IMG/VR virus record: IMGVR_UViG_3300006108_000074
Span: 1 to 20,795 of that record
DNA: 20,795 nucleotides
Source: a virus
Direction: 5' to 3' (one strand)
The position numbers were made by a program, and so were the translations under genes. The notes below the pieces were generated by a model. The model saw only the letters and a program-made list of their open reading frames with translations, searched no databases and was not told the origin of the DNA. Positions within the stretch are counted from its first letter, which is position 1. Each line of letters begins with the position of its first letter. Below, piece after piece: positions 5,416 to 18,654 of the stretch.

Positions 5416-5423
5416 CATAAATA
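5416..5423 (+). promoter_or_regulatory. Late promoter before tRNA-Gly
   Basis: CATAAATA, one base from the T4 late consensus, ten bases before tRNA-Gly(GCC). Confidence 0.6.
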
Positions 5424-5433
5424 ACTACCTAAT

Positions 5434-5508: not shown

Positions 5509-5525
5509 CCAGGTTAGGTGGTTCC

Positions 5526-5548
5526 CTTAAATAGAGCATGCAACACTT
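5526..5548 (+). promoter_or_regulatory. Late promoter abutting a start codon held in a hairpin
   Basis: CTTAAATA (5526-5533) is a two-mismatch late promoter. Counting as for T4, RNA would start at about 5538-5539, at the ATG itself. The ATG also lies at the edge of a hairpin formed by ATAGAGCA and TGCTCTAT (5531-5554). No SD is visible. Confidence 0.45.
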
Positions 5549-6167: not shown

Positions 6168-6181
6168 CAGCATTGCTGTTA
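6159..6181 (+). promoter_or_regulatory. Late promoter with hairpin before the 74-aa gene
   Basis: GTTAAATA (6159-6166) overlaps the stop codon of the GIY-YIG gene. It is followed at once by the hairpin TAACAGC-ATT-GCTGTTA around the predicted RNA start. Confidence 0.45.
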
Positions 6182-6201
6182 ACATACAACGAGGTGTTAT
6201 C

Positions 6202-6426
6202 ATGAAGTTCGCAGATTGGAAAGAGCAGTTCGGCCATATTCACATGACCGATTCTATCAAGACACTTCTCGCTGAGCTGAAGACCTTCGAGCACGACGTT
6301 GAAGCCCAAGCATCTGCCCGTTTCAAGGAACTCAAGGAGTTCGAAGAAAAGGTTGAGAAGATGCTTGTCGCCGAATGGGAAGTCTTCCTCGCCAAGATCG
6401 AGGGACATCACGGCGACTACAACTAA
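6202..6426 (+). CDS. Hypothetical 74-aa coiled-coil-like protein
   Basis: The ATG at 6202 follows SD GAGG at 6191. The protein is almost wholly helical and highly charged (LKTFEHDVEAQASARFKELKEFEEKVEKML), with hydrophobic residues spaced as in a short coiled coil, so it probably oligomerises. No known domain. It has its own late promoter at 6159 and ends six bases before the next start. Confidence 0.75.
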   Translation: MKFADWKEQFGHIHMTDSIKTLLAELKTFEHDVEAQASARFKELKEFEEKVEKMLVAEWEVFLAKIEGHHGDYN

Positions 6427-6431
6427 CTGGC

Positions 6432-6788
6432 ATGATCCCGTTTGAGAAAAACGGGTGGACGGTCTCCCGCCGAATCGGTGTTGGAGACCGTGAACTTGTC
6501 CGCGCTGGACTTCTGCAGATCGGCCTGATGTCGAGCGCGCAGATAGAAGATCAGCTTTCCGCGTGCATTGAGGCCGCGAAGAGATTGGGAACCGGAATGC
6601 GTGTTTACGTAAACACGACGCGCATTAATTCCGACCAACTACAGAAAATAATTTTCCGAACTATGGGCCAAGCCCGTGACTACGACTTTATGGACGAGAC
6701 TGACCTCTCTCCTGAACGATTCTCTTGGGTCCTTGGACGATGCGATCTCATCGTTGAAGGTCAAGGATCGATGATCTCAACAGCCTGA
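6432..6788 (+). CDS. Hypothetical 118-aa phage protein, possibly frameshifted at its end
   Basis: The protein opens with MIPFEKNGWTVSRRIGVGDREL and shows a well-ordered alpha/beta composition, but I recognise no family. Near its end the composition changes: the last eight residues (GSMISTA after EGQ) look unnatural, whereas the -1 frame from about 6762 onward encodes a charged helical stretch (DDLNSLIQEAWRSTDG, then MLEAAWRQSEEDMREKFPEYYGD) continuing to a stop at 6928. The original gene may have run through to 6928 and lost frame, or two genes may overlap. The start ATG at 6432 lacks a strong SD and follows closely on the preceding gene. Confidence 0.65.
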   Translation: MIPFEKNGWTVSRRIGVGDRELVRAGLLQIGLMSSAQIEDQLSACIEAAKRLGTGMRVYVNTTRINSDQLQKIIFRTMGQARDYDFMDETDLSPERFSWVLGRCDLIVEGQGSMISTA

Positions 6789-6823
6789 TTCAAGAGGCGT
6801 GGAGATCAACCGATGGGCGCCAC

Positions 6824-6928
6824 ATGCTTGAAGCTGCATGGCGTCAGTCTGAAGAAGACATGCGGGAGAAGTTCCCAGAGTATTACGGTGACGAGGAGCG
6901 ACTTTTCGTCCTTTACACCAAGACATAA
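6824..6928 (+). pseudogene. Open -1 frame continuing the 118-aa gene
   Basis: This frame is protein-like upstream of its only ATG (6824): coding character begins near 6765 without any ATG, GTG or TTG. It therefore looks like the C-terminal part of the preceding gene displaced by a frameshift, encoding a helical, acidic tail ending LFVLYTKT. It ends one base before tRNA-Ser(GCU). If independent, it would be a 34-residue peptide from 6824. Confidence 0.4.
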
Positions 6929-6929
6929 C

Positions 6930-7019
6930 GGAGGCGTGGCAGAGTGGCCGATTGCACTCGGTTGCTAACCGAGAGAGCCCGAAAGGGCTCCGTGAGTTCG
7001 AATCTCACCGCCTCCGCCA
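6930..7019 (+). tRNA. tRNA-Ser(GCU)
   Basis: Class II tRNA: acceptor GGAGGCG/CGCCTCC, anticodon stem CTCGG/CCGAG with loop TTGCTAA (anticodon GCT), variable arm GAGCCC-GAAA-GGGCTC, T-arm GTGAG/CTCAC, discriminator G and CCA. Confidence 0.97.
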
Positions 7020-7025
7020 TAAATA
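7018..7025 (+). promoter_or_regulatory. Late promoter overlapping the tRNA-Ser CCA end
   Basis: CATAAATA begins within the CCA of tRNA-Ser(GCU) and faces the methyltransferase gene at 7054. Confidence 0.6.
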
Positions 7026-7053
7026 TCGGCATGGACCATTGGGATACACTGGC

Positions 7054-7704
7054 ATGCTAACGTTCAAAGACTTCCTTCTCACTGAAGAAGCCCAAGTCAA
7101 CAATACCCGCAAAACTCAGGTCGCCACTACGGGCGGAACCTACGAGAAGACTGGAAAGATTCTCGCGGGCAAGCTTGCTCCCGGTTCAAAGATCATCAGC
7201 ATTGGCGCTGGTCTTGACCATACCCGCAAGGCACTTTCTAAGGGTCTTGGCGATAATCATGGTCACACGATCCACGACATGGAACCAAATCCAGAGGGTC
7301 GTAAGGAAGCACCTGAGTTTACATCTGCTGGTGAGATTCCAAAGAACGCTTATCACGCTGCCGTAAGCCACAACGTTCTCAATGTCGTTGAGCCTCATGT
7401 CAGAGAGAAGGTGATGAAGTCACACTTCGACTCCGTGAAGCCAGGTGGCCACATGATCATTGGTACCCGCGCTTTCAAAGGCGATGTCGATCAGGCAAAG
7501 AACTTTGAACCTGCCAATGAGAAGGGCGCCATCTGGGTCAAGAAGGGTAAGGAACGCTCCTACCAGAAGGGCTTCGATGCTAACGAGCTCAAGGACTACG
7601 TCGAGGACTACGCCAAGCGCCACGGTCACGAGGTAGAGGTAAAGAGAATCTCCGGCGTCGCCAAGAACGCCGTCGAGGTCCACGTAAAGAAAAAGGGCAA
7701 GTGA
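7054..7704 (+). CDS. SAM-dependent methyltransferase-like protein, possible internal head protein
   Basis: A 216-residue Rossmann-type methyltransferase-like protein. Motif I is IISIGAGLDHTRKAL (about residue 47), followed by an acidic strand end (HDMEPNPEG), the motif IV region AVSHNVLNVVEP and the post-core VKPGGHMIIGTR. The substrate is unknown. The N-terminus MLTFKDFLLTEEA resembles the T4 capsid-targeting sequence (M-x-T-Y/F-x-x-F-x-x-E-A) that delivers internal proteins into the prohead and is then trimmed, so the enzyme may be packaged in the virion. The in-frame ATG at 7054 is preferred because upstream sequence in this frame is tRNA. Confidence 0.85.
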   Translation: MLTFKDFLLTEEAQVNNTRKTQVATTGGTYEKTGKILAGKLAPGSKIISIGAGLDHTRKALSKGLGDNHGHTIHDMEPNPEGRKEAPEFTSAGEIPKNAYHAAVSHNVLNVVEPHVREKVMKSHFDSVKPGGHMIIGTRAFKGDVDQAKNFEPANEKGAIWVKKGKERSYQKGFDANELKDYVEDYAKRHGHEVEVKRISGVAKNAVEVHVKKKGK

Positions 7705-7758
7705 CTGTTTACATCTGATTGAGTTTGTGTTACTATCAGATTGTCACTTAGATAAATA
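7701..7758 (+). promoter_or_regulatory. Sigma70-like promoter inside an inverted repeat, then a late promoter
   Basis: TTTACA (7708-7713) and TACTAT (7731-7736) are separated by 17 bases, matching the other sigma70-like promoters in the window. The region is also an inverted repeat: GTGAC with GTCAC (7701-7705, 7743-7747) and ATCTGAT with ATCAGAT (7713-7719, 7735-7741). A late promoter GATAAATA follows at 7751-7758. Confidence 0.65.
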
Positions 7759-7870
7759 CCCGGATCGCTGATAAGCCGTCTTGACGAGGAGGTGGACTCA
7801 GGAGTTTTTACGGCTTTCTCCCTGAGGTATCAACGCATTGGCACTCGAGCACTGAAATCGTCGCGATCAT
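7759..7870 (+). other. Transcribed leader region with hairpin, no clear gene
   Basis: Downstream of both promoters lie a strong SD-like GAGGAGG without a start codon behind it, and a hairpin CTCAGGAG/CTCCCTGAG (one bulged C). No reading frame is convincing before 7871. It may be an untranslated leader. Confidence 0.35.
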
Positions 7871-7972
7871 ATGAAACACAAGCTTACTGAGCTGGCGAAA
7901 TACGCCGACGAAGAAATAGCAGAAGAATGGGAACGCAGGGGGAATCCTGCAGCGCGTCATGCGCGAGATTGA
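7871..7972 (+). CDS. Possible 33-aa peptide
   Basis: A short helical, acidic reading frame beginning MKHKLTELAKYADEE and ending PAARHARD. No clear SD precedes it. A second frame of 26 codons (7959-8039, rich in Arg, Pro and Glu) overlaps its end, and that overlaps the 57-aa gene at 8005, so the three would form a nested chain. The composition of the first peptide is gene-like; the second is doubtful. Confidence 0.4.
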   Translation: MKHKLTELAKYADEEIAEEWERRGNPAARHARD

Positions 7973-8004
7973 AATAAAGCCCATGAGGGAACGTCCAACT
8001 AAAA

Positions 8005-8178
8005 ATGAGCGACCGCAAGAACCGAGACGTAGGCCGTAAGAAGGAATGGCAGAAGTATCACCACCTCTGCGATTGCTGGCTCTGCACGAACGGTAAGACG
8101 AAGAAGCGGTTGCTCAAAGAGCGTCAGCTCAACAAGCAGAAGCACAAAGATTTGGAAGATAGGTTGCAAGGTGCATAA
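8005..8178 (+). CDS. 57-aa basic protein with CxCxxC motif
   Basis: A small lysine-rich protein with the cluster HHLCDCWLC near residue 20, which could bind zinc or iron. Flanking regions are strongly basic (GKTKKRLLKERQLNKQKHK), suggesting nucleic-acid contact. No family is named with confidence. Its last 25 bases lie within tRNA-Ser(CGA) at 8154, so the final codons follow tRNA sequence, the second such overlap in the window. It has no strong SD. Confidence 0.65.
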   Translation: MSDRKNRDVGRKKEWQKYHHLCDCWLCTNGKTKKRLLKERQLNKQKHKDLEDRLQGA

Positions 8179-8240
8179 CGAGTTTCGAAAGCTCGCCTAA
8201 CCCTCACGGGTTAATGGTTCGATTCCATTATCTTCCGCCA
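8154..8240 (+). tRNA. tRNA-Ser(CGA)
   Basis: Class II tRNA: acceptor GGAAGAT/ATCTTCC, anticodon stem CGAGT/GCTCG with loop TTCGAAA (anticodon CGA), variable arm TAACCC/GGGTTA, T-stem AATGG/CCATT, discriminator G and CCA. The D-arm is less regular than in the other Ser tRNAs. Confidence 0.92.
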
Positions 8241-8255
8241 TCAGAAAGAGAATAG

Positions 8256-8882
8256 ATGATCGAGAGCGGCATCACGTTTGACCCGGGGTTTAAGCCGCCC
8301 TCGCCCTTCATCTACGAAGCACCGGTTTCCGTTCACGCGACGCATATCCAAGCCGGCGTAAGAATCTGCAAGCACACCTACGTCAACAGCGGAAGAATCT
8401 TTTCTGAGACGTACATTGGTCGGTACTGCTCTATCGGCAATGATGTCAGCATTGGCACGGGTCATCATGACATGCGCCAGATGTCCATGAGCCCATGGTT
8501 CGAGCTCGATGCTCCTCCATCCTATCGATACTGTGATCATCCGTCTGTAAAGGTTCGGATCAAGAACGACGTATGGATCGGCAATGGCGTGATCATCATG
8601 GGCGGTGTTACGGTTGGTAATGGTGCAGTGATCGGTGCTGGAGCCGTGGTCACCAAGGACGTTCCTGATTATGCTGTTGTCGCTGGAGTTCCAGCCCGCA
8701 TTTTGAAGTACCGCTTCTCGGAAGACATTATCGAAAGGCTGCTTAAGCTGAAGTGGTGGGAGTTGGATGAAAACATCCTTAAGGCTCGCCCTCTTTCGAA
8801 CCTAGAAGAAGACCTTGCGTACTTCGAATCTCTTCCTGAGTCTGCTAGAACAGATGTAAAGGAAAAACTGCTGCGCATCTGA
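8256..8882 (+). CDS. Hexapeptide-repeat (CatB/Vat-like) acetyltransferase
   Basis: A 208-residue left-handed beta-helix protein. Hexapeptide repeats run from about residue 50 (TYIGRYCSIGNDVSIG) and again at 103-140 (VWIGNGVIIMGGVTVGNGAV, AVIGAGAVVTKDV). Between them an excursion with GTGHHDMRQMSMSPW supplies the His expected as catalytic base in xenobiotic-type O-acetyltransferases. The AVVAGVPARILKYRF ending and C-terminal helices are typical. It would transfer acetyl groups from acetyl-CoA to a hydroxyl acceptor, perhaps a sugar on virion or host surface; the acceptor is unknown. It starts 16 bases after tRNA-Ser(CGA) with an AGAAAGAG leader. Confidence 0.9.
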   Translation: MIESGITFDPGFKPPSPFIYEAPVSVHATHIQAGVRICKHTYVNSGRIFSETYIGRYCSIGNDVSIGTGHHDMRQMSMSPWFELDAPPSYRYCDHPSVKVRIKNDVWIGNGVIIMGGVTVGNGAVIGAGAVVTKDVPDYAVVAGVPARILKYRFSEDIIERLLKLKWWELDENILKARPLSNLEEDLAYFESLPESARTDVKEKLLRI

Positions 8883-8941
8883 TAAGAATCGCAGTAAATA
8901 TCACGTCGAAAGACTACACACATCACACTAGGAGCTATCAA

Positions 8942-9223
8942 ATGTCAAGCAAGACCCCTTACGAAATCCGCTCTGAGCTCATCTGTCTGGCTCAGCGTCA
9001 TCTTGAACAGCAGTACTTTGCAAACCTCGAGTTCGCTCGCGCGGTTTACCAAAAGTCCATCGAGGGCATGCCTGCTCCGAACTGCAAGACCATCGAAGAG
9101 ATGGCCGAGTTCCAGAAGCAGATGATGGAAAGCGCAACCAAGTTTCTGCCGGCTATGCCTTCAATGGAAGAAATTACCAAGAAGGCAACCGAGCTCTATG
9201 CTTTCGTGAGCAAGCGCGACTAA
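8942..9223 (+). CDS. Hypothetical 93-aa phage protein (TPYEIR family-like)
   Basis: The ATG follows SD AGGAG. The N-terminus SKTPYEIRSELICLAQRHLEQQY recalls a small conserved protein of T4-like phages whose function is unknown (from memory, not searched). The rest is helical with a Met-rich segment (FQKQMMESATKFLPAMPSMEEITKKA). It has no membrane segment. A GTAAATA-type weak late promoter lies about 45 bases upstream. The gene stands alone, followed by tRNA-Asn. Confidence 0.8.
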   Translation: MSSKTPYEIRSELICLAQRHLEQQYFANLEFARAVYQKSIEGMPAPNCKTIEEMAEFQKQMMESATKFLPAMPSMEEITKKATELYAFVSKRD

Positions 9224-9233
9224 AGTTTCTTGA

Positions 9234-9308
9234 TCCTCAGTAGCTCAGCGGTAGAGCTCCTCACTGTTAATGAGGCTGTCGGTGGTTCGATCCCATCCTG
9301 AGGAGCCA
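9234..9308 (+). tRNA. tRNA-Asn(GUU)
   Basis: Acceptor TCCTCAG/CTGAGGA, D-arm GCTC/GAGC, anticodon stem CCTCA/TGAGG with loop CTGTTAA (anticodon GTT), T-stem GGTGG/CCATC, discriminator G and CCA. The spacer before the next tRNA contains a small hairpin TTCAACG/CGTTGAA. Confidence 0.96.
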
Positions 9309-9339
9309 ATACGTTCAACGACTAGACCACGTTGAATAT

Positions 9340-9431
9340 GGAAGGATGGCGGAGTGGTCGATCGCACCGTCTTGGAAAGGCGGCGTACCCGTTAAACGGT
9401 ACCGTGGGTTCAAATCCCACTCCTTCCGCCA
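9340..9431 (+). tRNA. tRNA-Ser(GGA)
   Basis: Class II tRNA: acceptor GGAAGGA/TCCTTCC, anticodon stem CCGTC/GGCGG (one wobble) with loop TTGGAAA (anticodon GGA), long variable arm TACCCG/CGGTA, T-arm GTGGG/CCCAC, discriminator G and CCA. Confidence 0.96.
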
Positions 9432-9438
9432 TTTTGTG

Positions 9439-9536
9439 GCATCGAAAGATGCGGGAAAAGGGCTTGGGACCAGAGTGAAATCAGGAGCCCTGCGACCGTA
9501 AGGTCAATACCCATTAAGATCGTCTGTAATCACTCT
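9439..9536 (+). ncRNA. Structured non-coding segment with two GNRA-type hairpins
   Basis: After tRNA-Ser(GGA) about 100 bases contain no gene but four clear helices: GCATC-GAAA-GATGC (9439-9452), GGGCT/AGCCC (9460-9464 with 9486-9490), GACC-GTAA-GGTC (9494-9505) and AGAGTGA/TCACTCT (9472-9478 with 9530-9536). The last crosses the GGGCT helix and so would be an alternative or a pseudoknot. It ends just before the bidirectional hairpin at 9543. Confidence 0.45.
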
Positions 9537-9542
9537 CACAAC

Positions 9543-9570
9543 TGGGCAGGAATCTTCGGGTTCCTGCCCA
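9543..9570. terminator. Ten-bp hairpin between convergent transcripts
   Basis: TGGGCAGGAA and TTCCTGCCCA form a perfect stem with an eight-base loop. It lies ten bases past the stop of the minus-strand gene and after the plus-strand tRNA region, so it can serve both directions. Neither side has a long T-run. Confidence 0.65.
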
Positions 9571-9579
9571 TCGTTGTAT

Positions 9580-10251
9580 CTAGAGGTCGATAGTTCCGAT
9601 GAAGGGATCGTCAGTCGCGTAAACGACCATAGCGCCATCTGGCATGGCGACCGGCTCATAGCTCCCACCGATCCATGGGGATGAGCTTTTAGGAAGACCA
9701 ACGACGACAAGCTTTGGCCCGTCGATCTTGGCGAGTTCGGCCAACTGCGCTTCCTCATATTCTACTATGCCGACATACTCCTCGTACAGCAGGTGCTGTG
9801 GGAAGTTCTTGGTGCATAGGAAATCATCGATGTAGAAATCGGTGAAGAACTCTGAGTAGACAGTTTTGCTCAGCTTTGAGGCCTCATATTCCTCTTTCGT
9901 AAGACATGGCCATCCGTACATTGACAGGGCAGTAACCCCATTGATGATCTTTGGGGTGTTTGCGTAATGCACGTTTGGTGGAGCAATCGTAGAGATGTTG
10001 TAGCGGAAGTGGGTCGATGCATTGATGTACTTAGGAGCGATTCTGTATTCGTACTCCAGCACACCCATGTTGAACACAACCGGAATATCTGGATGCGCTA
10101 GAGCTGCTTCCTCGACGTAGTGCAGCGTTCGCTTTGGGTGGGTGCAAATGTCTCCAGTGATGGCAATGAAATCGGTTCCTGGCTCAACAGCTGGGACATC
10201 AGTAAATGCCAAATAGCTTATAGCCAAACTGCTCACATGTAGGATCTTCAT
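9580..10251 (-). CDS. Degenerate metallophosphoesterase-like protein
   Basis: A 223-residue minus-strand protein whose ATG at 10251 follows SD AGGAG. The N-terminus (MKILHVSSLAISYL), then AITGDIC near residue 33 and VVFNMGVLEYEY near 60 align with the calcineurin-like phosphoesterase pattern: D-x-H, GD, then GNH(D/E). The first ligand pair has become S-x-A, GNHE has become GVLE, and only the GD aspartate remains. The C-terminus stops (PFIGTIDL) just where such proteins usually continue into the GH-x-H motif. It is probably a catalytically dead or truncated relative. It is the only convincing minus-strand gene. Confidence 0.75.
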   Translation of the reverse strand: MKILHVSSLAISYLAFTDVPAVEPGTDFIAITGDICTHPKRTLHYVEEAALAHPDIPVVFNMGVLEYEYRIAPKYINASTHFRYNISTIAPPNVHYANTPKIINGVTALSMYGWPCLTKEEYEASKLSKTVYSEFFTDFYIDDFLCTKNFPQHLLYEEYVGIVEYEEAQLAELAKIDGPKLVVVGLPKSSSPWIGGSYEPVAMPDGAMVVYATDDPFIGTIDL

Positions 10252-10262
10252 ATGCACGCTCC

Positions 10263-10270
10263 TATAAATA
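10263..10270 (+). promoter_or_regulatory. Consensus late promoter of the protease-oxygenase cassette
   Basis: A perfect TATAAATA 45 bases upstream of the subtilase gene. It lies beside the SD of the divergent minus-strand gene. Confidence 0.75.
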
Positions 10271-10314
10271 ATCACAACCACCGCTAGGTATTTACTTGGA
10301 ACTCTGGAGACAAC

Positions 10315-11859
10315 ATGAGCCAATATCTCGTAAAGACGCAGGACATCACTAAGGTCACTGCAGCCAAAAATCCTCAGGAAGTTCACCCAGGTTTCTATCT
10401 GGTTGAAGCTGACGATCTCGCCGCCCTTACCGCACAGGTTGAGAGCATTGAACCAGCTCATGACGAAGTGAAGCTTACCTTCCAAGTCGCGCCTGTTGCA
10501 GGCTCTGCAGATTTTGTCGGTCTTCCAGCAGATCATGAATGGGCTCGCCTCCGTGTTGTTTCGCGCGTTCACCCACTTCAGACCGTTTTCAATCGCGCTG
10601 ATTGCACGTACGTTCGCACTCCTGAACTGTTCATCGTAGATACCGGCGTCAACTTCTCCCACGATGAGTTTGTTGGAGTCGCTTCTACGAATGACTTCTA
10701 CAAGGTACCAGCGCTTTCATCCTTCCGTGACGATCTAGGCCACGGCACCGCGGTTGCTTCTCTTGCATGCGGTAAGAACATCGGCGTCGAGCAGTCTGTC
10801 TCCCTGCAAAACGTAAAGATCGCTGGCGATGGTCACACGACTACCAACCTCGAACTTGGTAACGCTCTGTTCTCCATTCTGAAGCACCATGCTGATACGC
10901 CAACCGTTCCTAAGGTTGTCAACTGCTCGTGGAACGTTCCTAAGAGCGCCTTCTTCGACGACATCTTCAAGGCGATGCTTTCTGCCGGTATCTGCGTTGT
11001 AGCAGCAGCTGGTAACACCGGTATCGACGTTACCGACACTACCCCAGCCGGTCTTGTCGACGTCATCACAGTTGCAGCATCTGACAAGGACGACGTTTCT
11101 GCAGGCTTCAACAACTTCTCGAAGCCAGACATGGCTATCACGACCAACGCTGGTCTTACGGTAGACATCTTTGCTCCAGGTGTTGACATCGTCGTTGCAA
11201 AGTATGATGGCAATGACCACTACTTCTCTGGTTCAGGTACGTCTTTCGCCGCTCCTCTGGTTACTGGCGCTGCATGCATCATCATGTCGATGCTGGAATC
11301 GGTATTTGGTTCAGATGTCCGTCAGATCATGATCGACACTGCTACTAAGGGCGCCCTTCTTCTCGACGCTTCTAAGTTCACTGCCGAACAGAACAACCTT
11401 CTGTTCCTTCTGAACACCGATGAAGCTGCACAGTTCAAGGATCTGACCTTCTTCGTCGACACGCTGTCGGTAACCAACCCAACGATCTCGTCTGACGTCA
11501 ACCGCGTTATGGCATGGAAGAACTACGAATCTGTATCTGGCGAATCTCCAGCATTCAGCATCGTTTATCCAGATGACGCCACGAAGGCAGCCCTTGAAAA
11601 CAATATCACGATCAGCAATGACGGTACATTCGTCATTACGAACCCAACGCTGACATGGGCAGCTGACGAAAATCTACGACTCATGGACTTTAAGGTAGCA
11701 GTGACGTTCAAGAATGTCAGCTACACTTCTCCAAAGATCGTATTCTTCGTTGTTAACCCAGCTCAGAAGGCTGACGTCAGTGGTGAAATCTCGTCTGCAC
11801 TCGAAAGCATGAACGCGCAGACCCTCTTCGCAGCATGGGCAAGCAAAACCCTAAAGTAA
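10315..11859 (+). CDS. Subtilisin-like serine protease (S8)
   Basis: A 514-residue protein with the complete S8 catalytic set: Asp109 in VDTG, His143 in GHGTAVAS, oxyanion Asn234 in AAGN and Ser310 in GTSFAAPLVTGA. Residues 1-100 form an N-terminal domain resembling an inhibitory propeptide but without a signal peptide, so it likely acts inside the cell or in the virion. Residues about 370-514 add a beta-rich domain (FKDLTFFVDTLSVTNPTI) unlike the protease core. SD TGGAG precedes the ATG. It leads a cluster with two oxygenases and a PP-loop ATPase, the next gene starting five bases after its stop. A protein-processing role in that cluster is inferred. Confidence 0.95.
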   Translation: MSQYLVKTQDITKVTAAKNPQEVHPGFYLVEADDLAALTAQVESIEPAHDEVKLTFQVAPVAGSADFVGLPADHEWARLRVVSRVHPLQTVFNRADCTYVRTPELFIVDTGVNFSHDEFVGVASTNDFYKVPALSSFRDDLGHGTAVASLACGKNIGVEQSVSLQNVKIAGDGHTTTNLELGNALFSILKHHADTPTVPKVVNCSWNVPKSAFFDDIFKAMLSAGICVVAAAGNTGIDVTDTTPAGLVDVITVAASDKDDVSAGFNNFSKPDMAITTNAGLTVDIFAPGVDIVVAKYDGNDHYFSGSGTSFAAPLVTGAACIIMSMLESVFGSDVRQIMIDTATKGALLLDASKFTAEQNNLLFLLNTDEAAQFKDLTFFVDTLSVTNPTISSDVNRVMAWKNYESVSGESPAFSIVYPDDATKAALENNITISNDGTFVITNPTLTWAADENLRLMDFKVAVTFKNVSYTSPKIVFFVVNPAQKADVSGEISSALESMNAQTLFAAWASKTLK

Positions 11860-11863
11860 GCTG

Positions 11864-12577
11864 ATGATCAGAGTTTCTCGCGTTGAGACACACGAAGGTC
11901 TGTGGAAGCATCATAACGTTCTTGATGCTTCCACATTCAACGCTCTTTATGGTCTCTCGCAGTTTCTAATCTCTCCGCAACATCATCGCCTCAACGAAGA
12001 AACCCGAGTTCTTAAGGGTGCTGATGGTGAGAATCTAAAGCTCGCCGCGGTAGGCTCAGAGCGTAGCTACAGCAAGCTGTGGCATCTTCCATTGGTTCCG
12101 GGCTATTGGTACCAGACCAATGAGACCATTGGAGCATGGGCAGAGACCCAGCTCAAATCAATCCACCCTGCCCTTCGCATGATGATAGCTCGCTTTCGTG
12201 AGCTTGAGCCGTTCAATGATGGGCATGAGTGGATTCCATATCGTGGCATCTTCAATCACCTGAAGGCAGGCGTTCCACTGGAACCTCATGAAGATGGATC
12301 AAGCGGCTTCGAGCTCGACATTGAAAAGCACAGCATCTACAGCTCAACCATCTACTTTCAGCTGCCTGATGAGGGCGGTATTTTCTGGGATGAGCGCGGC
12401 TTTATCCAGAAGCCAGAAGTGAACATGCTTCTTATCAACCGTGCAAGCCGCATCATGCATGGCGTCACTCCTGGAAATAAAGACCGTCTTGGCTTCACCA
12501 TTCGCTGGTGCCCTGCCCGTCATCTTCTGCTGCCAGGCAGCCCTGATCTGCTTTTCTGGAAGCCACCAGAAGTCTAA
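11864..12577 (+). CDS. Fe(II)/2-oxoglutarate-dependent oxygenase
   Basis: A 237-residue protein with the double-stranded beta-helix oxygenase signature: HxD as His142 and Asp144 (EPHEDG), distal His199 (RIMHG) and Arg208, likely the 2-oxoglutarate carboxylate ligand (DRLGFTIRW). It would hydroxylate or otherwise oxidise a substrate with O2 and 2-oxoglutarate; prolyl-hydroxylase-like phage proteins have this layout. It starts five bases after the subtilase stop, so the two are co-transcribed and probably co-translated. The substrate is unknown; virion proteins or a peptide matured by the protease are possibilities. Confidence 0.88.
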   Translation: MIRVSRVETHEGLWKHHNVLDASTFNALYGLSQFLISPQHHRLNEETRVLKGADGENLKLAAVGSERSYSKLWHLPLVPGYWYQTNETIGAWAETQLKSIHPALRMMIARFRELEPFNDGHEWIPYRGIFNHLKAGVPLEPHEDGSSGFELDIEKHSIYSSTIYFQLPDEGGIFWDERGFIQKPEVNMLLINRASRIMHGVTPGNKDRLGFTIRWCPARHLLLPGSPDLLFWKPPEV

Positions 12578-12605
12578 CCTGAAAAACTTTCGGATTGGAC
12601 CTGTG

Positions 12606-12628
12606 GTAAATACCTTATCGAGAGGTAT
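12606..12628 (+). promoter_or_regulatory. Late promoter with short SD-overlapping hairpin
   Basis: GTAAATA (12606-12612) is a weak late promoter. ATACC (12610-12614) can pair with GGTAT (12624-12628), which abuts the SD GAGAGG of the PP-loop gene. RNA begun at about 12618 would lack the 5' arm. With five pairs this is a weak version of the arrangement at 1541, 3608 and 4414. Confidence 0.4.
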
Positions 12629-12631
12629 CGC

Positions 12632-13582
12632 ATGTCTAGTCCAGTTCCATTCACCCGCGTGTTCAACGAAGGATGGATGAACTATGACCTGGTGAGCCGT
12701 GAGATCATTGAGTACACGATCAATCTTACTGCAGAACAAATCGAAAGCATTGAGCGCGATCGCTTCGCAGAATATCGTCGTAAGGCTGTTCATGACAGCC
12801 TGCTATTCGTTGGTGACAATCCAGCGGTTATGCTGAGCGGTGGCATTGACAGCCAGGTAATGCTCTATTCTTTCATCGAGACAGGGATCAAGGTATCCCC
12901 TGTTATCGTTGATTTTGACGGCAAGAACACCCACGACACTGACGTGGCGCTAGAATACTGCAAGCTGCTAAACGTTGATCCTACGGTTATCGAGCTAAAC
13001 GTCAAGTGGTTCCTTAATCGTGAAGGAGTGCAGTATGGCTTGAAGCACGGACTTCGTAGCCCACAGTTCACCTGTCATGCGAAGGCATGCGAGCTTCTTC
13101 AAGCTAAAGGATATACCGGTGCTGTGTTTGGCGGCAACTCGCTCTACCTAATCAAAAACCATTTGGACGTGAGCGAGGGTTGGATCTTTGGCGCATCCGC
13201 AGCCCAGCTTTTGGATCTGCCAACCTTTAGCCAATCGATCAACTGGCCGATTATCGGCAGCTTCTGTTCATGGTCTTGGCAAGCGTGCATGGCAATGTCG
13301 GCTCTGTCAGAAGAAAATGTAGACGATGCTGAAACCCGCTATCAGCAAAAGATTCAAGCGTACAGATCATTCGGTATTCCGATCATTCCACAAAAGCAGA
13401 AGTATACCGGATTCGAAAACATCAAGAATGAAATAGACGCCATGGACAAGGCTGGCTATTTTGAGTTGAAGTTTAGAGCTCCTCTTTACGCTAAGACACC
13501 AGACCAGTACAAGCCAAGACTTATTCTTACCGATGCGCAGCAACAAGCGCTTGACAACTTATCAGCGAGGCTAAAGACATGA
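12632..13582 (+). CDS. PP-loop ATPase (asparagine-synthetase-like adenylating domain)
   Basis: A 316-residue protein with the PP-loop motif VMLSGGIDSQVML near residue 67, the ATP-binding signature of N-type ATP pyrophosphatases. The following strand (VSPVIVDFDGKNTHDTDVA) fits the family, and a C-terminal helical region follows. It has no glutaminase domain, so it is not a full AsnB. It may adenylate a carboxyl or carbonyl group for amide or thio transfer. Its stop overlaps the start of the next oxygenase gene (ATGA), implying linked function. SD GAGAGG precedes the ATG. The substrate is unknown. Confidence 0.85.
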   Translation: MSSPVPFTRVFNEGWMNYDLVSREIIEYTINLTAEQIESIERDRFAEYRRKAVHDSLLFVGDNPAVMLSGGIDSQVMLYSFIETGIKVSPVIVDFDGKNTHDTDVALEYCKLLNVDPTVIELNVKWFLNREGVQYGLKHGLRSPQFTCHAKACELLQAKGYTGAVFGGNSLYLIKNHLDVSEGWIFGASAAQLLDLPTFSQSINWPIIGSFCSWSWQACMAMSALSEENVDDAETRYQQKIQAYRSFGIPIIPQKQKYTGFENIKNEIDAMDKAGYFELKFRAPLYAKTPDQYKPRLILTDAQQQALDNLSARLKT

Positions 13583-14223
13583 CCTTAACTGTCACTGATC
13601 TTGCCGCAAACATGGGCGACGTTTTTGTTCTTGACTATCCTCTATGGAATGTTGGTAGAGCACGCGACATCCTAGCGGAACATCCGGGCTGGGTTCAGTA
13701 CAACCCGCGCAAGCCTCACATCAAGCGCAAGGGCCTTTCGATAACCTCGCTTGACGGTGGCTTCAGCGGCATTCCAGATCTGGATTCGATTCGGGAATAC
13801 AACCGTGAGAATGGAACCACGTGGCAGGAGCATGACTTCAACAAGCCAACGAGCATCACTCGTCTGATTCCTGAAGCTCTTGATGTCCTTCAGTCATTCC
13901 CAGTAGGAACAATCGGACGCTGCCATTTTCTGCGTCTTGATGCAGGTGGGTTCTTCCCACCTCACCGTGACAATGGACTGGCCCTTCCAACAGGATCATT
14001 CCGTATCCTCGTTCCACTGGTCGATTTTGACGGTGATGGTCAGCACGTATGGCTTCAGGAAGGAAAGCCAGTATCGCTTAGAGCCGGCTACACGTACTTC
14101 ATCAACACGACCAAGGTCCATTCGCTGTTCTCGTTTGCAGATCGGTGCGAGATGGTGGTCATCAATGTCATAGCCGAAGAAAGCGCTATCAGGTATTGCG
14201 CAACGCGATCTAAGGTCGCCTAA
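13579..14223 (+). CDS. Second Fe(II)/2OG oxygenase, aspartyl-hydroxylase-like
   Basis: A 214-residue protein with His129 and Asp131 in FPPHRDNG, distal His181 in TTKVHSLFSF and Arg189, which fits the aspartyl/asparaginyl beta-hydroxylase-like cupin group better than the prolyl hydroxylase group. It would hydroxylate an amino acid or peptide residue. The start overlaps the PP-loop gene by four bases. Presence of two different oxygenases around an ATP-activating enzyme and behind a protease suggests multi-step modification of one target, which is inference. The C-terminal end is Arg- and Lys-containing and unstructured. Confidence 0.86.
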   Translation: MTLTVTDLAANMGDVFVLDYPLWNVGRARDILAEHPGWVQYNPRKPHIKRKGLSITSLDGGFSGIPDLDSIREYNRENGTTWQEHDFNKPTSITRLIPEALDVLQSFPVGTIGRCHFLRLDAGGFFPPHRDNGLALPTGSFRILVPLVDFDGDGQHVWLQEGKPVSLRAGYTYFINTTKVHSLFSFADRCEMVVINVIAEESAIRYCATRSKVA

Positions 14224-14241
14224 AAATACCCCACAAACCTG

Positions 14242-14270
14242 TTTACAATCAGGAGAAAGCGATGTATAAT
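14242..14270 (+). promoter_or_regulatory. Near-consensus sigma70 promoter of the diguanylate cyclase gene
   Basis: TTTACA (14242-14247), a 17-base spacer and TATAAT (14265-14270), giving RNA from about 14277. The same TTTACA-N17-TATAAT pattern occurs at 20374, suggesting an early promoter class read by host RNA polymerase. Confidence 0.85.
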
Positions 14271-14293
14271 CTAAAGGTAGGATGGACTAAGCC

Positions 14294-14932
14294 ATGAAGG
14301 ACCCAATGGACTCCAAAAACTCAATGCACGGGTACATCCGCATGCTGCAGCAGAAGCTGCAGGAAAAGGACCGGACCATCAACGAGCTGATGCAGCAGGT
14401 CAGTGACCTTCAAAAGCGCGTCTACACGGATGATATGACGGGACTGCTCACTCGCGAAGCCTTCAAGGACCGAGTGCGCCAGATGCTTTTGGAGACCACG
14501 CGTAACGGTGGACACACGTTCGTTGTGTTCCTCGACGTAGATAACTTCAAGGGCATCAATGACGCTCATGGCCACGATGGCGGCGACTTTGCTCTTATCA
14601 CGATTGCAACCAGACTTGGAAATGCCATGCGTCGTACCGACGTTGTGGGTCGTTGGTCTGGAGACGAGTTCGTCGCGGCCTTCCACATGACTCCGGAAGA
14701 GTTTGCCACTCAAGACCACCGCATTGTTTTTGAACGCATGCAGAAGGCAATCTCCAAGCCTACCTCGTTCAAGGACAAGGCGATGAACCTCACATGCAGC
14801 ATGGGTGCGGTCACCTATTCTGGCTGCGATGAGATTGACCCTGAAGAGCTGATCAACCAGGCTGACGAAGCGATGTACGCATCGAAGCGGGCCGGCAAGG
14901 ATCGCATTTCGGTAGCTGTCTATCATGATTGA
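14294..14932 (+). CDS. Phage-encoded GGDEF diguanylate cyclase
   Basis: A 212-residue protein: an N-terminal coiled coil (about 15-42), then one GGDEF domain. The active-site signature is SGDEF (122-126), with the metal and substrate motifs FLDVDNFKGINDAHGHDGGDF (79-99, conserved Asp, Asn and GHxxGD) and DDMTGLLTR before them. The product-inhibition site RxxD (Arg113, Asp116) stands the usual five residues upstream. It should make c-di-GMP from two GTP, with dimerisation by the coiled coil. It has an early-type sigma70 promoter. An ATG at 14306 behind AAGGA is an alternative start. It overlaps the QueC-like gene by eight bases. It may shift host motility, biofilm or defence signalling. Confidence 0.93.
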   Translation: MKDPMDSKNSMHGYIRMLQQKLQEKDRTINELMQQVSDLQKRVYTDDMTGLLTREAFKDRVRQMLLETTRNGGHTFVVFLDVDNFKGINDAHGHDGGDFALITIATRLGNAMRRTDVVGRWSGDEFVAAFHMTPEEFATQDHRIVFERMQKAISKPTSFKDKAMNLTCSMGAVTYSGCDEIDPEELINQADEAMYASKRAGKDRISVAVYHD

Positions 14933-15515
14933 GAACCTTCTGGATTTTCCTGAACAGCGAGTCGGTGTTTTCGTTTCGGCGGGCACCGACTCAACCATTC
15001 TGCTGTACCTCATTCTCAAGGAGAACATTACAGCGAAGAAGGACATCACCCTCTTCTGTATTCCTAAGCACGATGGCGCGGCAGATTACGTTCATGGCTG
15101 CGTGAACGCGGTCTGTGAGAAGTTGGGAGTTGCGGTTCCTCCGCTGTTCTTCGTTGGAAATCCAGACTGGGATCATACGTTCATCGTCCAGCGGGCATGG
15201 GGTGAGGTGGCAGATCGCAAGATCGTCGACAAGATTTTTCTAGCCGACAACGTTCCTCCACCCCTCAATCTTCCTGGCCTTCAGCCACGCCGTGGTCGCT
15301 CTACCCACCCGATGGCGGTCCAGCCGTTCTTCGACATGACGAAGGACCAGATCATCAAGCTCTATTTTGATTATGGGATAGAGGACATCCTCAAGCTGAC
15401 GCACACCTGCACGGAAACCCGAGTGGGTGCCTGCTGGAAATGCTGGCAGTGTAGTGAACGAATGTGGGCATTTGCGGAACTCGGGCTTCAAGACCCTCTC
15501 CGCCCAATCACCTGA
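14925..15515 (+). CDS. QueC-like PP-loop protein
   Basis: A 196-residue PP-loop ATPase with SAGTDST (18-24) near the N-terminus and a C-terminal zinc-type cysteine set, Cys162, Cys170, Cys173 and Cys176 (HTCTETRVGACWKCWQCSERMWAF region), in the C-x7-C-x2-C-x2-C layout of QueC. QueC makes preQ0 for queuosine and phage 7-deazaguanine DNA modification. The middle part is short and divergent, so substrate identity is unsure; it may activate a different carboxylate. No QueD, QueE, FolE or transglycosylase gene is in this window. It overlaps the diguanylate cyclase gene by eight bases. Confidence 0.78.
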   Translation: MIENLLDFPEQRVGVFVSAGTDSTILLYLILKENITAKKDITLFCIPKHDGAADYVHGCVNAVCEKLGVAVPPLFFVGNPDWDHTFIVQRAWGEVADRKIVDKIFLADNVPPPLNLPGLQPRRGRSTHPMAVQPFFDMTKDQIIKLYFDYGIEDILKLTHTCTETRVGACWKCWQCSERMWAFAELGLQDPLRPIT

Positions 15516-15521
15516 ATAAAG

Positions 15522-15553
15522 CAGTTCTCTTTTACGAGAAACTGTGATACAAT
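15522..15553 (+). promoter_or_regulatory. Inverted repeat and extended -10 promoter before the yqeY-like gene
   Basis: CAGTTCTC and GAGAAACTG (15522-15544) form a hairpin with one bulged A. TGA followed by TACAAT (15548-15553) is an extended -10 box. The hairpin could end the upstream transcript or act as an operator. Confidence 0.5.
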
Positions 15554-15584
15554 CGTTCCAGTAACAGAACTTAGAAAGGCCAAC

Positions 15585-16022
15585 ATGTCACTTATCGATC
15601 AAGTCAAGGCAGCGCAGATCGCTGCCCGTAAGTCGCGGAACTCTGCCGCGGCAGCGACCCTCACGACCCTAATCGGCGAGGCCGAAGCGGTGGGTAAGAA
15701 CGCTGGACGAGCGCCAACTGACGAAGAAGTCGTTGCGACCGTCAAGAAGTTCATCAAGAACATCGATGCGACTTTGGCCGTTCTGATCCCTGTTTCGGTT
15801 GCCTATGAGGCCTATGCGGCTGAAAAGGCGCTTCTGGAAACCTTCCAACCCAAGCAGATGAGCGAAGAAGAGCTCACCGCCGTGATCAAGACCATCGCAG
15901 CAGAAGTTGGAGCAACTTCTCCGAAGGACATGGGTAAAGTCATGGCCGCTCTAAAGGCAGCGCATGACGGCCAATACGATGGCAAGCTGGCATCTCAGCT
16001 GGTTAAAGCCGCTCTGGCCTGA
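15585..16022 (+). CDS. yqeY: YqeY/GatB-tail-like protein
   Basis: A 145-residue all-helical protein. The pattern SLIDQVKAAQIAARKSRNSAAAATLTTLIGEAE at the start, FQPKQMSEEELTAVIKTIAAEVGATSPKDMGKVM near 84-117 and the C-terminal DGKLASQLVKAAL match the YqeY family, whose fold is the tRNA-binding tail domain of the GatB amidotransferase subunit. The cellular role of YqeY is not settled; a link to tRNA is attractive in a genome carrying so many tRNAs, but is inference. SD AAAGG precedes the ATG. The stop overlaps a strong hairpin. Confidence 0.85.
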   Translation: MSLIDQVKAAQIAARKSRNSAAAATLTTLIGEAEAVGKNAGRAPTDEEVVATVKKFIKNIDATLAVLIPVSVAYEAYAAEKALLETFQPKQMSEEELTAVIKTIAAEVGATSPKDMGKVMAALKAAHDGQYDGKLASQLVKAALA

Positions 16023-16041
16023 TCAGGTTCACGCCTGATCA
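16020..16041 (+). terminator. Eight-bp hairpin at the yqeY stop codon
   Basis: TGATCAGG and CCTGATCA pair perfectly around the stop codon. It is followed directly by a late promoter CATAAATA (16040-16047) and by the terminator at 16052. Confidence 0.55.
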
Positions 16042-16047
16042 TAAATA
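16040..16047 (+). promoter_or_regulatory. Late promoter between two hairpins
   Basis: CATAAATA, one mismatch from the late consensus. Late RNA would begin near 16053, inside the 5' arm of the following terminator, possibly weakening it for late transcripts. Confidence 0.5.
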
Positions 16048-16051
16048 CTCT

Positions 16052-16079
16052 GCAACCTGAGTGTTGCGTTTTGTGTTTT
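16052..16079 (+). terminator. Factor-independent terminator
   Basis: GCAAC-CTGAGT-GTTGC hairpin followed by GTTTTGTGTTTT, upstream of the VWA gene. A possible promoter TTTACT-N17-TTTATA begins at its end. Confidence 0.65.
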
Positions 16080-16116
16080 ACTGTTTCAACCGTTTGAACT
16101 TTATAGGAGTTTGAAA

Positions 16117-17181
16117 ATGAAGAACTATATCGGCATCTCCCGCGATCATTCCGGCTCAATGAGCTCGATCGCCCGCGCAGCAGCTCGCGATTACAACGAC
16201 AATATCGCAGCCATCCGCGAAGCTTCCCTCTCTGAAAATCAAGACACTATCGTTTCTGTGGTCGAATGCGGCTACGGTGACACCGCCTCTGTGCGCCGGG
16301 CGATCGTCAACTCGAACGTCACCGCGCTGCAGCCTATCGCTGAAGGCGCCTACACTGCTCGTGGCCGCGGAACTCCGCTCTTCGACAGCGTCGGCGAACT
16401 GATCGAAATGTTCGAAAGCGTCCCCGACGCAGACGACATCAATGTTTCGTTCCTCGTCATGGCTGTTACCGATGGCCAGGAAAATGCTTCTCGCAAGTAC
16501 TCTGCCGCTACCATCGCCGCAAAAATCCGACAGCTTCAAGCGACTGACCGTTGGACCTTCGTGTTCCGCGTTCCTCGTGGAGATGCTCGCCGGCTGATGC
16601 AGCTGGGCATTCCTGAAGGCAACATCCTCGAGTGGGAACAGACCCAACGCGGTGTTGAAGTTGCTTCTGCCCGCACCCGTGAAGCCTTCACCGGCTACAT
16701 GTCGGCTCGTTCTTCTGGTGTCAAGTCCACTCAGAAGTTCTACACCGATCTGTCGAACGTCACGAGCAAGGACGTTGCAGCGGTTCTGGAAGACGTCTCC
16801 TCAGATGTTCTGATCTGGCCTGTCAGCGTTGCGGACCACGATGCAGAAATCCGTCCCTTCATCGAAGCTCGCCTTGGCGGTAAGCCAATGCTCAAGGGCG
16901 CCGGCTTCTACCAGCTGACGAAGACTGAGCCTACCGTCCAGGATCACAAGAAGATTCTCATCCGTGACAAGACCACGCAGGCCGTCTACTACGGTTCTGC
17001 AGCTCGTCAGATGCTGGGTCTGCCTACCTACGGTAACGTTCGCCTGGCTCCAGGCAACCACGGCAACTTCGACATCTTCATTCAATCCACCTCGGTCAAC
17101 CGCAAGCTGGCTGCCGGCACTTCCCTGGTCTACTGGGCAAACGTCGGAACCCGCTACAAGGAGGGTCCGTCCAGCCGCTGA
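16117..17181 (+). CDS. VWA-domain protein with intact MIDAS
   Basis: A 354-residue protein whose N-terminal 170 residues form a von Willebrand A domain with a full metal-ion adhesion site: Asp10, Ser12 and Ser14 (DHSGS), Thr86 (GTPLFDS) and Asp119 (VTDGQEN). Such domains bind partner proteins through the metal; TerY-like bacterial proteins are relatives. The C-terminal half (from about 230, VLIWPVSVADHDAEIRPF) is a separate conserved-looking domain of unknown role. The ATG at 16117 with SD AGGAG is chosen over an upstream in-frame TTG. The stop overlaps the start of a GIY-YIG gene (ATGA). Confidence 0.9.
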   Translation: MKNYIGISRDHSGSMSSIARAAARDYNDNIAAIREASLSENQDTIVSVVECGYGDTASVRRAIVNSNVTALQPIAEGAYTARGRGTPLFDSVGELIEMFESVPDADDINVSFLVMAVTDGQENASRKYSAATIAAKIRQLQATDRWTFVFRVPRGDARRLMQLGIPEGNILEWEQTQRGVEVASARTREAFTGYMSARSSGVKSTQKFYTDLSNVTSKDVAAVLEDVSSDVLIWPVSVADHDAEIRPFIEARLGGKPMLKGAGFYQLTKTEPTVQDHKKILIRDKTTQAVYYGSAARQMLGLPTYGNVRLAPGNHGNFDIFIQSTSVNRKLAAGTSLVYWANVGTRYKEGPSSR

Positions 17182-17741
17182 TGAGATATTACATCTACAG
17201 GATAACGCGTATAAAGGATGGTGCCTTTTATATAGGGCGCCATTCTTCACGTCTTCCAGAAGAAAAGGATCGGTATTTTGGTGGTGGTACAAGGATCAAG
17301 CGTTCCGTAAAACTTTATGGCAGAGAAGCCCATCTGAAAGAAATACTTGTAGAGGCGTCATCTTTAGAAGAGTTGATCTCTCTTGAGGCACAGATAGTGT
17401 CAAAAGATGTTATCAAAAACCCAAAATGCCTCAATCTTAGGCCAGGTGGGAAAGATGGAAAATTTGACTTTACACCAGAAAGACTTTCTCAGGTTTCTAA
17501 AGAGCTCTGGACACGACCAGAATATAGAGAAAAACTTAAAGATTTTGGACATTATGAAAGGTCAAAATCCACGCGTGAAAAGATGTCAAAAATCATGCGC
17601 TCGCGCATGACGACAGTCAATCATACGTCAAACACGGTGTGGATGACTAATGGATTTATCAGAAAAAGAATACCCATCTGTGATGAAGCGGCCTTTAAAG
17701 CTCTTGGATTTATCAGAGGGAGAAAAGGAAAAGCATTATGA
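17181..17741 (+). CDS. GIY-YIG homing endonuclease embedded between coupled genes
   Basis: A 186-residue GIY-YIG protein, divergent from the other three: YYIYRI and FYIGRHSS form the catalytic pair, followed by KLYGREAHLKE, LEAQIVS and NLRPGGKDG. The C-terminal DNA-binding half has a NUMOD3-like SKSTREKMSKIMRSR segment. It starts in the stop codon of the VWA gene and its own stop overlaps the next start, both as ATGA. Unlike the others it has no late promoter or hairpin and would be made with the VWA gene. Its codons are visibly more AT-rich than the VWA gene's, pointing to recent insertion. Confidence 0.93.
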   Translation: MRYYIYRITRIKDGAFYIGRHSSRLPEEKDRYFGGGTRIKRSVKLYGREAHLKEILVEASSLEELISLEAQIVSKDVIKNPKCLNLRPGGKDGKFDFTPERLSQVSKELWTRPEYREKLKDFGHYERSKSTREKMSKIMRSRMTTVNHTSNTVWMTNGFIRKRIPICDEAAFKALGFIRGRKGKAL

Positions 17742-17925
17742 CACCAAAATTTGAGATTGGATCATCACCAGATGATAAACAGGTTGAGTATGTCTGGGTA
17801 CATGAAGGTCCAGGTGTGACAGTATTCAAAAACTAAAATCTGGCTGGGTCATTAAGCAGGCAAATGTCGGTGGGTTGCCCGCAAACACCATTGCCAGGCT
17901 TGTTGCCAGTGAAATGCAGGAGTAA
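17738..17925 (+). pseudogene. Small gene split by a -1 frameshift before its first stop
   Basis: The zero frame (17738-17836) encodes 32 residues ending GPGVTVFKN and a TAA stop. Just before that stop lies CAAAAAC (17827-17833). Shifting -1 there opens a frame that reads VTVF-KK-LKSGWVIKQANVGGLPAN and runs in gene-like sequence to a stop at 17923-17925, giving about 62 residues. The seven-mer is close to, but not, the ideal A-AAA-AAC slippery site. Either the phage uses frameshifting or one A of a run has been lost. It starts in the GIY-YIG stop codon, which lies just upstream. The product is unrecognised. Confidence 0.6.
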
Positions 17926-17929
17926 GGAA

Positions 17930-18232
17930 ATGAGTTCACGTTATCCTTATTTTAAGGAAATCCCATTTACGAACCGTATCGGGCAGACTGTCCAAGTTGG
18001 TGATAGGGTCGTGGTCGTCACGACCGGCTATTGTCATCGCGTCAATGTCCGTGAGGGCATCTTCCTCGGTGTCACCAACCGTCATCCAACCATCCAGGTG
18101 GTTGAAGAGGCTATGTGCTGGGTTGCTCCCGATGGTTCTATCGGTCGGTGGAAGGACGGCGCAAAATACGAAAAGCGTCGTCGCACAATCCGCAGGACGC
18201 TTCAGGCAGATCGAGTTTTTGCGCTGAAGTAA
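17930..18232 (+). CDS. Hypothetical 100-aa basic protein
   Basis: The ATG at 17930 stands behind a double SD (AGGAG, AAGGA) and four bases after the -1 frame stop of the preceding gene. The protein has a small beta-barrel look: TVQVGDRVVVVTTGY, VREGIFLGVTN and IQVVEEAMCWVAPDGSI, then a strongly basic tail (KYEKRRRTIRRTLQ). An RNA- or DNA-binding SH3-like fold is plausible. I do not recognise a family. Confidence 0.8.
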   Translation: MSSRYPYFKEIPFTNRIGQTVQVGDRVVVVTTGYCHRVNVREGIFLGVTNRHPTIQVVEEAMCWVAPDGSIGRWKDGAKYEKRRRTIRRTLQADRVFALK

Positions 18233-18261
18233 ATAGTTCAACGAAACGCATGTTACAGCGA

Positions 18262-18290
18262 ATGGGTCATCGTCATGGTGACCCATTTTG
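18262..18290 (+). terminator. Hairpin terminator after the 100-aa gene
   Basis: ATGGGTCA and TGACCCAT form an eight-bp stem with a nine-base loop, followed by TTTGC. It lies 30 bases past the stop codon and before the SD of the next gene. Confidence 0.55.
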
Positions 18291-18308
18291 CTTTAGAGGA
18301 GATGCCAG

Positions 18309-18623: not shown

Positions 18624-18627
18624 ATAT
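18620..18627 (+). promoter_or_regulatory. Late promoter of the 404-aa gene
   Basis: GATAAATA, one base from the late consensus, overlapping the upstream stop codon and 27 bases before the ATG at 18655. Confidence 0.6.
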
Positions 18628-18654
18628 CCTTACGTTTAAACCACAGGTTCCAAG

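Follow-up and report, generated by a model that had tools for sequence, protein, structure and literature searches.

Cap9 of the type IV cyclic-oligonucleotide-based antiphage signaling system (CBASS) is a PP-loop enzyme that modifies the terminus of a dedicated partner protein, and the same has been suggested for QatC of qatABCD, according to the part of the study on which we draw (PMC13279940). As described there, both belong to the QueC family and are directed at an N-terminal glycine. Neighborhoods of QueC-family genes have also been described in a paper whose main text does not contain the words 'protease', 'peptidase' or 'subtilisin' (PMC13329287). Here we analyzed a 20,795-base stretch of viral DNA, IMG/VR virus record IMGVR_UViG_3300006108_000074 (the window), in which a PP-loop gene, PPL1, is clustered with a subtilisin gene, S8, two genes for iron- and 2-oxoglutarate-dependent (Fe/2OG) oxygenases, OG1 and OG2, and a metallophosphoesterase-like gene, MPE. 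Cap9 and QatC are the closest precedent for this cluster, since in these systems, as here, a PP-loop enzyme is paired with one dedicated partner; there the enzyme targets the partner's terminus, as we propose below for PPL1. PPL1 differs from them in being AsnB-like in its predicted fold, with a CxxC motif in 1 of 50 members, and in being paired with a subtilisin that keeps a lysine at its C-terminus. The macrolactam cyclase of lasso peptide clusters is likewise AsnB-like. Such clusters come closest in their mix of chemistry, an ATP-dependent macrolactam enzyme and a protease together with a 2OG hydroxylase (CanE of canucin) or an acetyltransferase (AlbT of albusnodin), as set out in the relevant portion of PMC9266682. 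They are set apart from the present cluster by their cysteine protease, here replaced by an S8 subtilisin, and by their precursor peptide, which was not found within 4 kb in 58 loci.

We found that the five genes form a conserved phage module with a near-obligate pair of PPL1 and S8 at its core, carried by many uncultured, largely T4-like phages. No description of a near-obligate PP-loop/subtilisin pair with a lysine-tipped protease was found in the literature searched. Our leading reading, which we hold tentatively and place somewhat short of probable, is that of a late-expressed protein-modification module in which PPL1 would join a group at the S8 tip, with tailoring by the oxygenases and a GNAT acetyltransferase. 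If true, a phage example would join the newly recognized PP-loop enzymes that modify partner proteins.

Linkage of PPL1 and S8 across phage loci

A scan of IMG/VR with OG2 gave 79 loci, whose gene content was then read by profile searches. A second, independent scan used the PPL1 alignment; pooled with the loci already found, it brought the non-redundant PPL1 loci to 61, the window among them. An S8 scan gave 80 loci, and many contigs turned up in more than one of the three scans. S8 was present in 26 of the 29 OG2 loci that carried PPL1, the remaining three stopping at a contig edge, and in 0 of the 50 OG2 loci without PPL1. The same division was seen for OG1 (23/29 versus 0/50) and for MPE (24 versus 0). 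S8 lay within about 3 kb of PPL1 in 55 of the 61 non-redundant PPL1 loci; five of the six others (L015, L027, L029, L141 and L153) were contig ends, and L155 was a true absence. When the S8 loci were sorted by profile score, 41 scored at least 229 bits and 40 of these carried PPL1, the exception (L185) beginning within S8, whereas none of the 39 loci scoring 138 bits or less did so. These low-scoring proteins are generic phage S8 proteases, which share the catalytic domain with the window S8 at 27-32% identity but score low over the full-length profile. Because PPL1 was found in 40/41 high-scoring and 0/39 low-scoring loci, PPL1 is linked to an S8 subfamily of its own. PPL1 and S8 distances were correlated across 49 loci (r=0.951), and 0 of 2000 permutations gave a value as high.

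All five genes remained grouped through changes of gene order, from MPE-S8-OG1-PPL1-OG2 in the window to OG2-PPL1-MPE-S8-OG1 in other loci, with MPE on the opposite strand. MPE was accompanied by S8 in 24 loci. OG1 was restricted to the module: of its 26 IMG/VR loci, 23 belonged to contigs that carry the module and the other 3 sat at the end of a contig. The OG2 family is broader than the module and includes Pelagibacter phage Mosig. A sequence-only reading of the window had named four of these families as one cluster and proposed their co-occurrence in other phages as a check. The outcome was strongly positive and added MPE as a fifth family; the linkage would have failed had the genes been unlinked in relatives, and this was partly so for OG2 only (50/79 OG2 loci without PPL1).

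Scans for close relatives with the single window proteins PPL1, S8 and OG1 found none. In 50,697 phage records, megablast of positions 9000-20795 gave no match, nor did tblastn of OG1, PPL2 (a second PP-loop gene in the window) and PPL1, the last taken from the window, L128 and L147; the PPL1-S8 pair was therefore unseen in these records at that sensitivity. PADLOC reported no whole anti-phage defense system, and its matches were limited to a generic subtilase, a partial IetS and a partial QueC. A VWA-like gene in the window shared 59% identity with one in Caulobacter phage Cr30, the record of which is annotated with T4 homologs, and the window thus looks related to T4-like phages. The T4-type capsid protein Gp23 was present in 12 of the 29 relatives' contigs tested; the window record has no known capsid gene. 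In L191 (815-7443), a tandem double PPL1-S8 pair lies downstream of a homolog of the same VWA-like gene.

Predicted enzymes of the module

PPL1 contains the PP-loop motif SGGIDSQ, and the alignment showed conservation of SGGxDS, N99, D102 and K257-TGFE. Its Pfam match was confined to residues 66-124, the PP-loop part of QueC (PF06508, E 1.4e-5). A structure predicted from a 50-member alignment reached a predicted local distance difference test score (pLDDT) of 92.2 and a predicted template modeling score of 0.91, the single-sequence model having a pLDDT of 34.7. When this model was compared with known structures by VIA-align, the human and E. coli asparagine synthetases ranked at the top (Z 15.6-15.1, root-mean-square deviation 4.5-4.8, 276-278 residues), followed at lower ranks by beta-lactam synthetase (Z 14.0), carbapenam synthetase (12.7) and LarE (11.6). 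Foldseek placed TtuA first, with low TM-scores, and hhalign against E. coli AsnB aligned the N-terminal half alone (probability 33.8, E 4e-4), so that a correspondence of K257 to the active-site lysine of AsnB is speculative. PPL1 is thus like the asparagine synthetase B and beta-lactam synthetase family (PF00733) in SGGxDS and in a predicted fold that matches across most of its length (Z 15.6-13.5). The second motif of that family is G.G.[DS]E, and here PPL1 departs from it, for the motif was absent in 50 of 50 members. A glutaminase-type domain of the N-terminal nucleophile (Ntn) class gave no Pfam match, and in the window PPL1 has about 60 residues before the PP-loop. Neither the C-terminal cysteine zinc motif of QueC (CxxC in 1/50) nor the sulfurtransferase cysteines of the TtuA, LarE and ThiI type (best cysteine column 35/50) were found, and sulfur transfer by PPL1 was set aside as unsupported, with no conserved cysteine pair among the 50 members. 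PPL1 is predicted to have an asparagine-synthetase-like fold without the glutaminase domain, and from this we infer that it adenylates a carboxylate and then forms an amide.

The catalytic set read from the S8 sequence was borne out by a Pfam Peptidase_S8 match (E 2.3e-26) and by D109, H143, S310 and N234, which were retained in a 17-sequence alignment; all 17 members matched PF00082. The two oxygenases proved distinct, each with an intact HxD...H triad. In OG1, H142-x-D144, H199 and R208 were invariant in 20/20 members; the window protein had no Pfam match, and 7 of the 20 matched 2OG-FeII_Oxy_3. In OG2, H129-x-D131 and H181 were invariant in 25/25, and the Pfam match to Asp_Arg_Hydrox was weak and below cut-off (E 0.017). 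Metallophosphoesterases carry the motifs DxH, GDxxD, GNH and GHxH, and inspection of the MPE alignment by eye indicated that their metal ligands are replaced. The Pfam Metallophos match of MPE was weak in the window (E 0.072) and present in 3 of 18 members, and a profile search of MPE against the PDB found nothing.

The S8 tip as a candidate substrate

S8 ended in lysine in 24 of 24 non-redundant loci with OG1 or MPE, window included. The residue before it was isoleucine in 12, leucine in 11 and phenylalanine in 1, and the preceding residues were variable. No such constancy was seen in the other module proteins of the same loci, where no single residue ended more than 12 of 23 copies of OG1, PPL1, OG2, MPE or GNAT. 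The final lysine was encoded by AAA in 16 loci and AAG in 8, the penultimate codon took 8 forms and the stop codons varied too. Because the lysine and penultimate codons vary, selection acts on the tip as protein. Among 31 unpaired phage S8 controls, 4 ended in lysine versus 24/24 here (Fisher p 9e-12, a value that is too small because the loci are related).

We extended the census to 77 complete non-redundant paired S8 proteins, of which 30 had a final lysine, 12 had lysine second from the end, 34 had a Cys-rich tail and one, L257, had neither. L257 lacks lysine in its last two residues and contains an internal Cys-rich stretch, so that 42 of the 43 tails that are not Cys-rich had lysine within the last two residues. 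The 34 Cys-rich tails had exactly eight cysteines in 22 cases, any lysine in 33 and exactly one lysine in 27. In 31 of them a lysine stood 1-6 residues before CxC or CxxC, compared with a mean of 10.1 and a maximum of 19 in shuffles that preserved the cysteines. A later scan, run after the pattern had been noticed, gave 19 new tails, 14 of them Cys-rich (6 or 8 cysteines) and 12 with the K..CxC motif; the remaining five were L257 and four in which the Cys-rich stretch is followed by a Hint domain. The S74 self-cleaving domain is typical of phage fibers. A Hint or S74 self-processing domain followed the Cys-rich unit in six S8 proteins, S74 in two of them. OG1 or MPE accompanied 24 of 32 lysine-ending tails versus 0 of 32 Cys-rich tails, in a classing that differs from the 30/34 of the census by L123 and L138, which combine a Cys-rich unit, S74 and a final lysine and switch class. 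Alongside the PPL1-S8 pairing, retention of the tip lysine is an informative new feature.

A late promoter was indeed present upstream of S8 in the window. TATAAATA occurred three times in the window versus 0.15 expected from shuffled sequence, and within 150 bases 5' of S8 in 8/54 loci (27-53 bases away) versus about 0.5 expected; for PPL1 the figure was 3/54 and for other module genes 0-2. Given this excess, S8 counts as a late gene in at least a subset of the loci. The earlier hint of virion maturation is supported as regards a late program for S8, by these promoters and by the two S74 domains.

The best candidate for a modified substrate is the C-terminus of S8 itself. In the mechanism that we propose, S8 would be made late, and PPL1 would use ATP to convert a carboxylate to an acyl-adenylate, which it would then couple through an amide linkage to the tip of S8, the tip lysine being the simplest acceptor. 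Tailoring, whether of the substrate or of the group joined to it, would fall to OG1 and OG2 and, in relatives, to the GNAT acetyltransferase. S8 would be a surface or virion-borne protease, and the modified tip might anchor, protect or aim it. In a more specific form, which we consider somewhat unlikely, an AsnB-like PP-loop ligase attaches a group or a protein to the tip lysine of a virion-borne subtilisin, with clade-specific 2OG hydroxylation and acetylation, and Hint or S74 cleavage exposes some tips; the one-lysine Cys-rich tips would then be modified, disulfide- or metal-stabilized binding tips. The earlier proposal of a dedicated modification system finds partial support, as regards a conserved module, the modification and its substrate being suppositions. 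Several points weigh against modification of the tip. An action of PPL1 on S8 is itself a supposition, and the [I/L/F]K tip could instead serve assembly or stability. Lysine is common near C-termini, falling within the last two residues in 11/31 control S8 proteins; the Cys-rich tail of L131 has no lysine, and L266 and L275 depart from the Lys-CxC spacing. The tip pattern was spotted after the fact on 55 S8 proteins, and an OG1 scan gave no new [I/L/F]K loci, every hit falling on a contig already known or at the end of one. S8 is missing from the PPL1 loci L155/L303 and L297 and from four PPL1-bearing contigs of Bdellovibrionota metagenome-assembled genomes (MAGs), 46 of 54 S8 genes have no exact TATAAATA upstream, and the loci are related, so that the counts are not independent.

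If S8 instead served to mature some other protein or peptide, either a virion protein or a precursor resembling those of ribosomally synthesized and post-translationally modified peptides and encoded elsewhere, then PPL1, the oxygenases and GNAT would modify that substrate. The same mix of chemistry is seen in lasso clusters, where a 2OG hydroxylase (canucin) or an acetyltransferase (albusnodin) occurs according to the portion of the source cited (PMC9266682). GNAT adjoins the core in many loci, radical SAM genes lie by the core in L147 and L132, and one clade has a transglutaminase-like protease, C93, between S8 and OG1. This account leaves the conservation of the S8 tip unexplained, however, and the small precursor peptide that the sequence-only reading had suggested seeking nearby did not emerge, the largest family of small open reading frames (ORFs) within 4 kb of PPL1 or S8 spanning 10/58 loci; we regard it as on the unlikely side. 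The tip would be accounted for without PPL1 if S8 were a virion protease with exchangeable fiber-like tips, the lysine being needed for folding, assembly or stability while PPL1 acts on a target unrelated to the tip. Such a protease would fit the S74 or Hint domain in which some S8 proteins end, the T4 late promoter and the variable Cys-rich tails. We nevertheless consider it unlikely, because it explains neither the near-constant adjacency of PPL1 to a special S8 subfamily nor their togetherness across many gene orders.

Adjacency also bears on two accounts in which S8 plays no part. Beta-lactam- and carbapenam-type pathways employ 2OG oxygenases. PPL1 might accordingly build a small molecule such as a beta-lactam-like ring, to be oxidized by the 2OG enzymes, with S8 a bystander, and the resemblance of its predicted fold to those of beta-lactam synthetase (Z 14.0) and of carbapenam synthetase (Z 12.7) is compatible with this. 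Yet S8 is the most constant partner, whereas OG1 and OG2 are missing from many PPL1 loci, and none of the 50 PPL1 members has the G.G.[DS]E motif, which makes small-molecule biosynthesis improbable. That the genes are unrelated auxiliaries, collected in a variable phage region by a tRNA and homing-endonuclease cluster, is highly improbable. tRNAs and endonuclease-like ORFs do abound in this part of the window, and OG2 occurs without PPL1 in 50/79 loci, but all linkage statistics contradict this origin (26/29 versus 0/50; 55/61; 40/41 versus 0/39; r=0.951).

Gene layout, accessory genes and other window features

The coordinates, gaps, ATGA overlap and strand of the four packed genes all matched the ORF calls and the sequence (Table 1). 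The four-gene description was correct and incomplete, MPE and PPL2 having been overlooked.

Table 1. Positions of the module genes and associated features in the window.
Feature	Position	Strand	Remarks
MPE, degenerate metallophosphoesterase-like	9580-10251	-	divergent from S8; fifth module member
Late promoter, T4-type, TATAAATA	10263-10270	+	45 bases 5' of S8
S8, subtilisin, 514 amino acids	10315-11859	+	C-terminal extension ending ...AWASKTLK
S8 tip, last three codons T-L-K	11848-11856	+	conserved [I/L/F]-Lys-COOH end
OG1, Fe/2OG oxygenase	11864-12577	+	4-base gap after S8
PPL1, PP-loop enzyme	12632-13582	+	54-base gap after OG1
OG2, AspH-type Fe/2OG oxygenase	13579-14223	+	4-base ATGA overlap with PPL1
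PPL2, QueC-like PP-loop protein with C-terminal Cys motif	14925-15515	+	QueC E 8e-08; occasional core partner

Homologs of PPL2 were close to PPL1 and S8 in nine loci (L030, L110, L111, L128, L137, L261, L264, L267 and L285). A GNAT gene, with a Pfam Acetyltransf_1 match, adjoins the core in many loci, and one clade has PAAR genes ahead of PPL1. Radical SAM genes were seen near PPL1 and S8 in two loci without 2OG enzymes, L147 (6289-7305) and L132 (4142-5164). In L025, L028, L032, L048, L116 and L118, the C93 gene lies between S8 and OG1 together with a pair of small ORFs that resemble membrane proteins or lipoproteins; these are possibly lysis genes. Among the Bdellovibrionota loci, L160 has PPL1 and GNAT without S8, and the others have PPL1 without either; in L160 (7408-9264) a Cys-rich ORF with a K-W-C-E-C stretch, PPL1 and GNAT are consecutive. 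A virion-structural neighborhood was considered and set aside, being inconsistent across the loci listed.

Just 3' of OG2, at 14294-14932 (+), the window encodes a stand-alone GGDEF diguanylate cyclase with an SGDEF motif (Pfam E 5.9e-40), which looks unusual in a phage. It is preceded by an 11-residue ORF, MYNLKVGWTKP (14262-14297, +), with a good ribosome-binding site and a stop that overlaps the GGDEF start; the two may be translationally coupled. The VWA-like gene (16111-17181, +; phrog_26613, named VWA by eye, no Pfam match) adjoins YqeY and QueC-like genes. ARAGORN called a 72-base tRNA with a UCA (selenocysteine) anticodon at 1425-1496 (+), unreported by Rfam at gathering score, which could be a UGA suppressor or a false call. 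Fourteen tRNA calls fall within 1-9431 and 17181-17741, among ORFs named by eye as GIY-YIG-like and HNH-like, and one endonuclease-like ORF of the window matches a homing endonuclease of phage Cr30.

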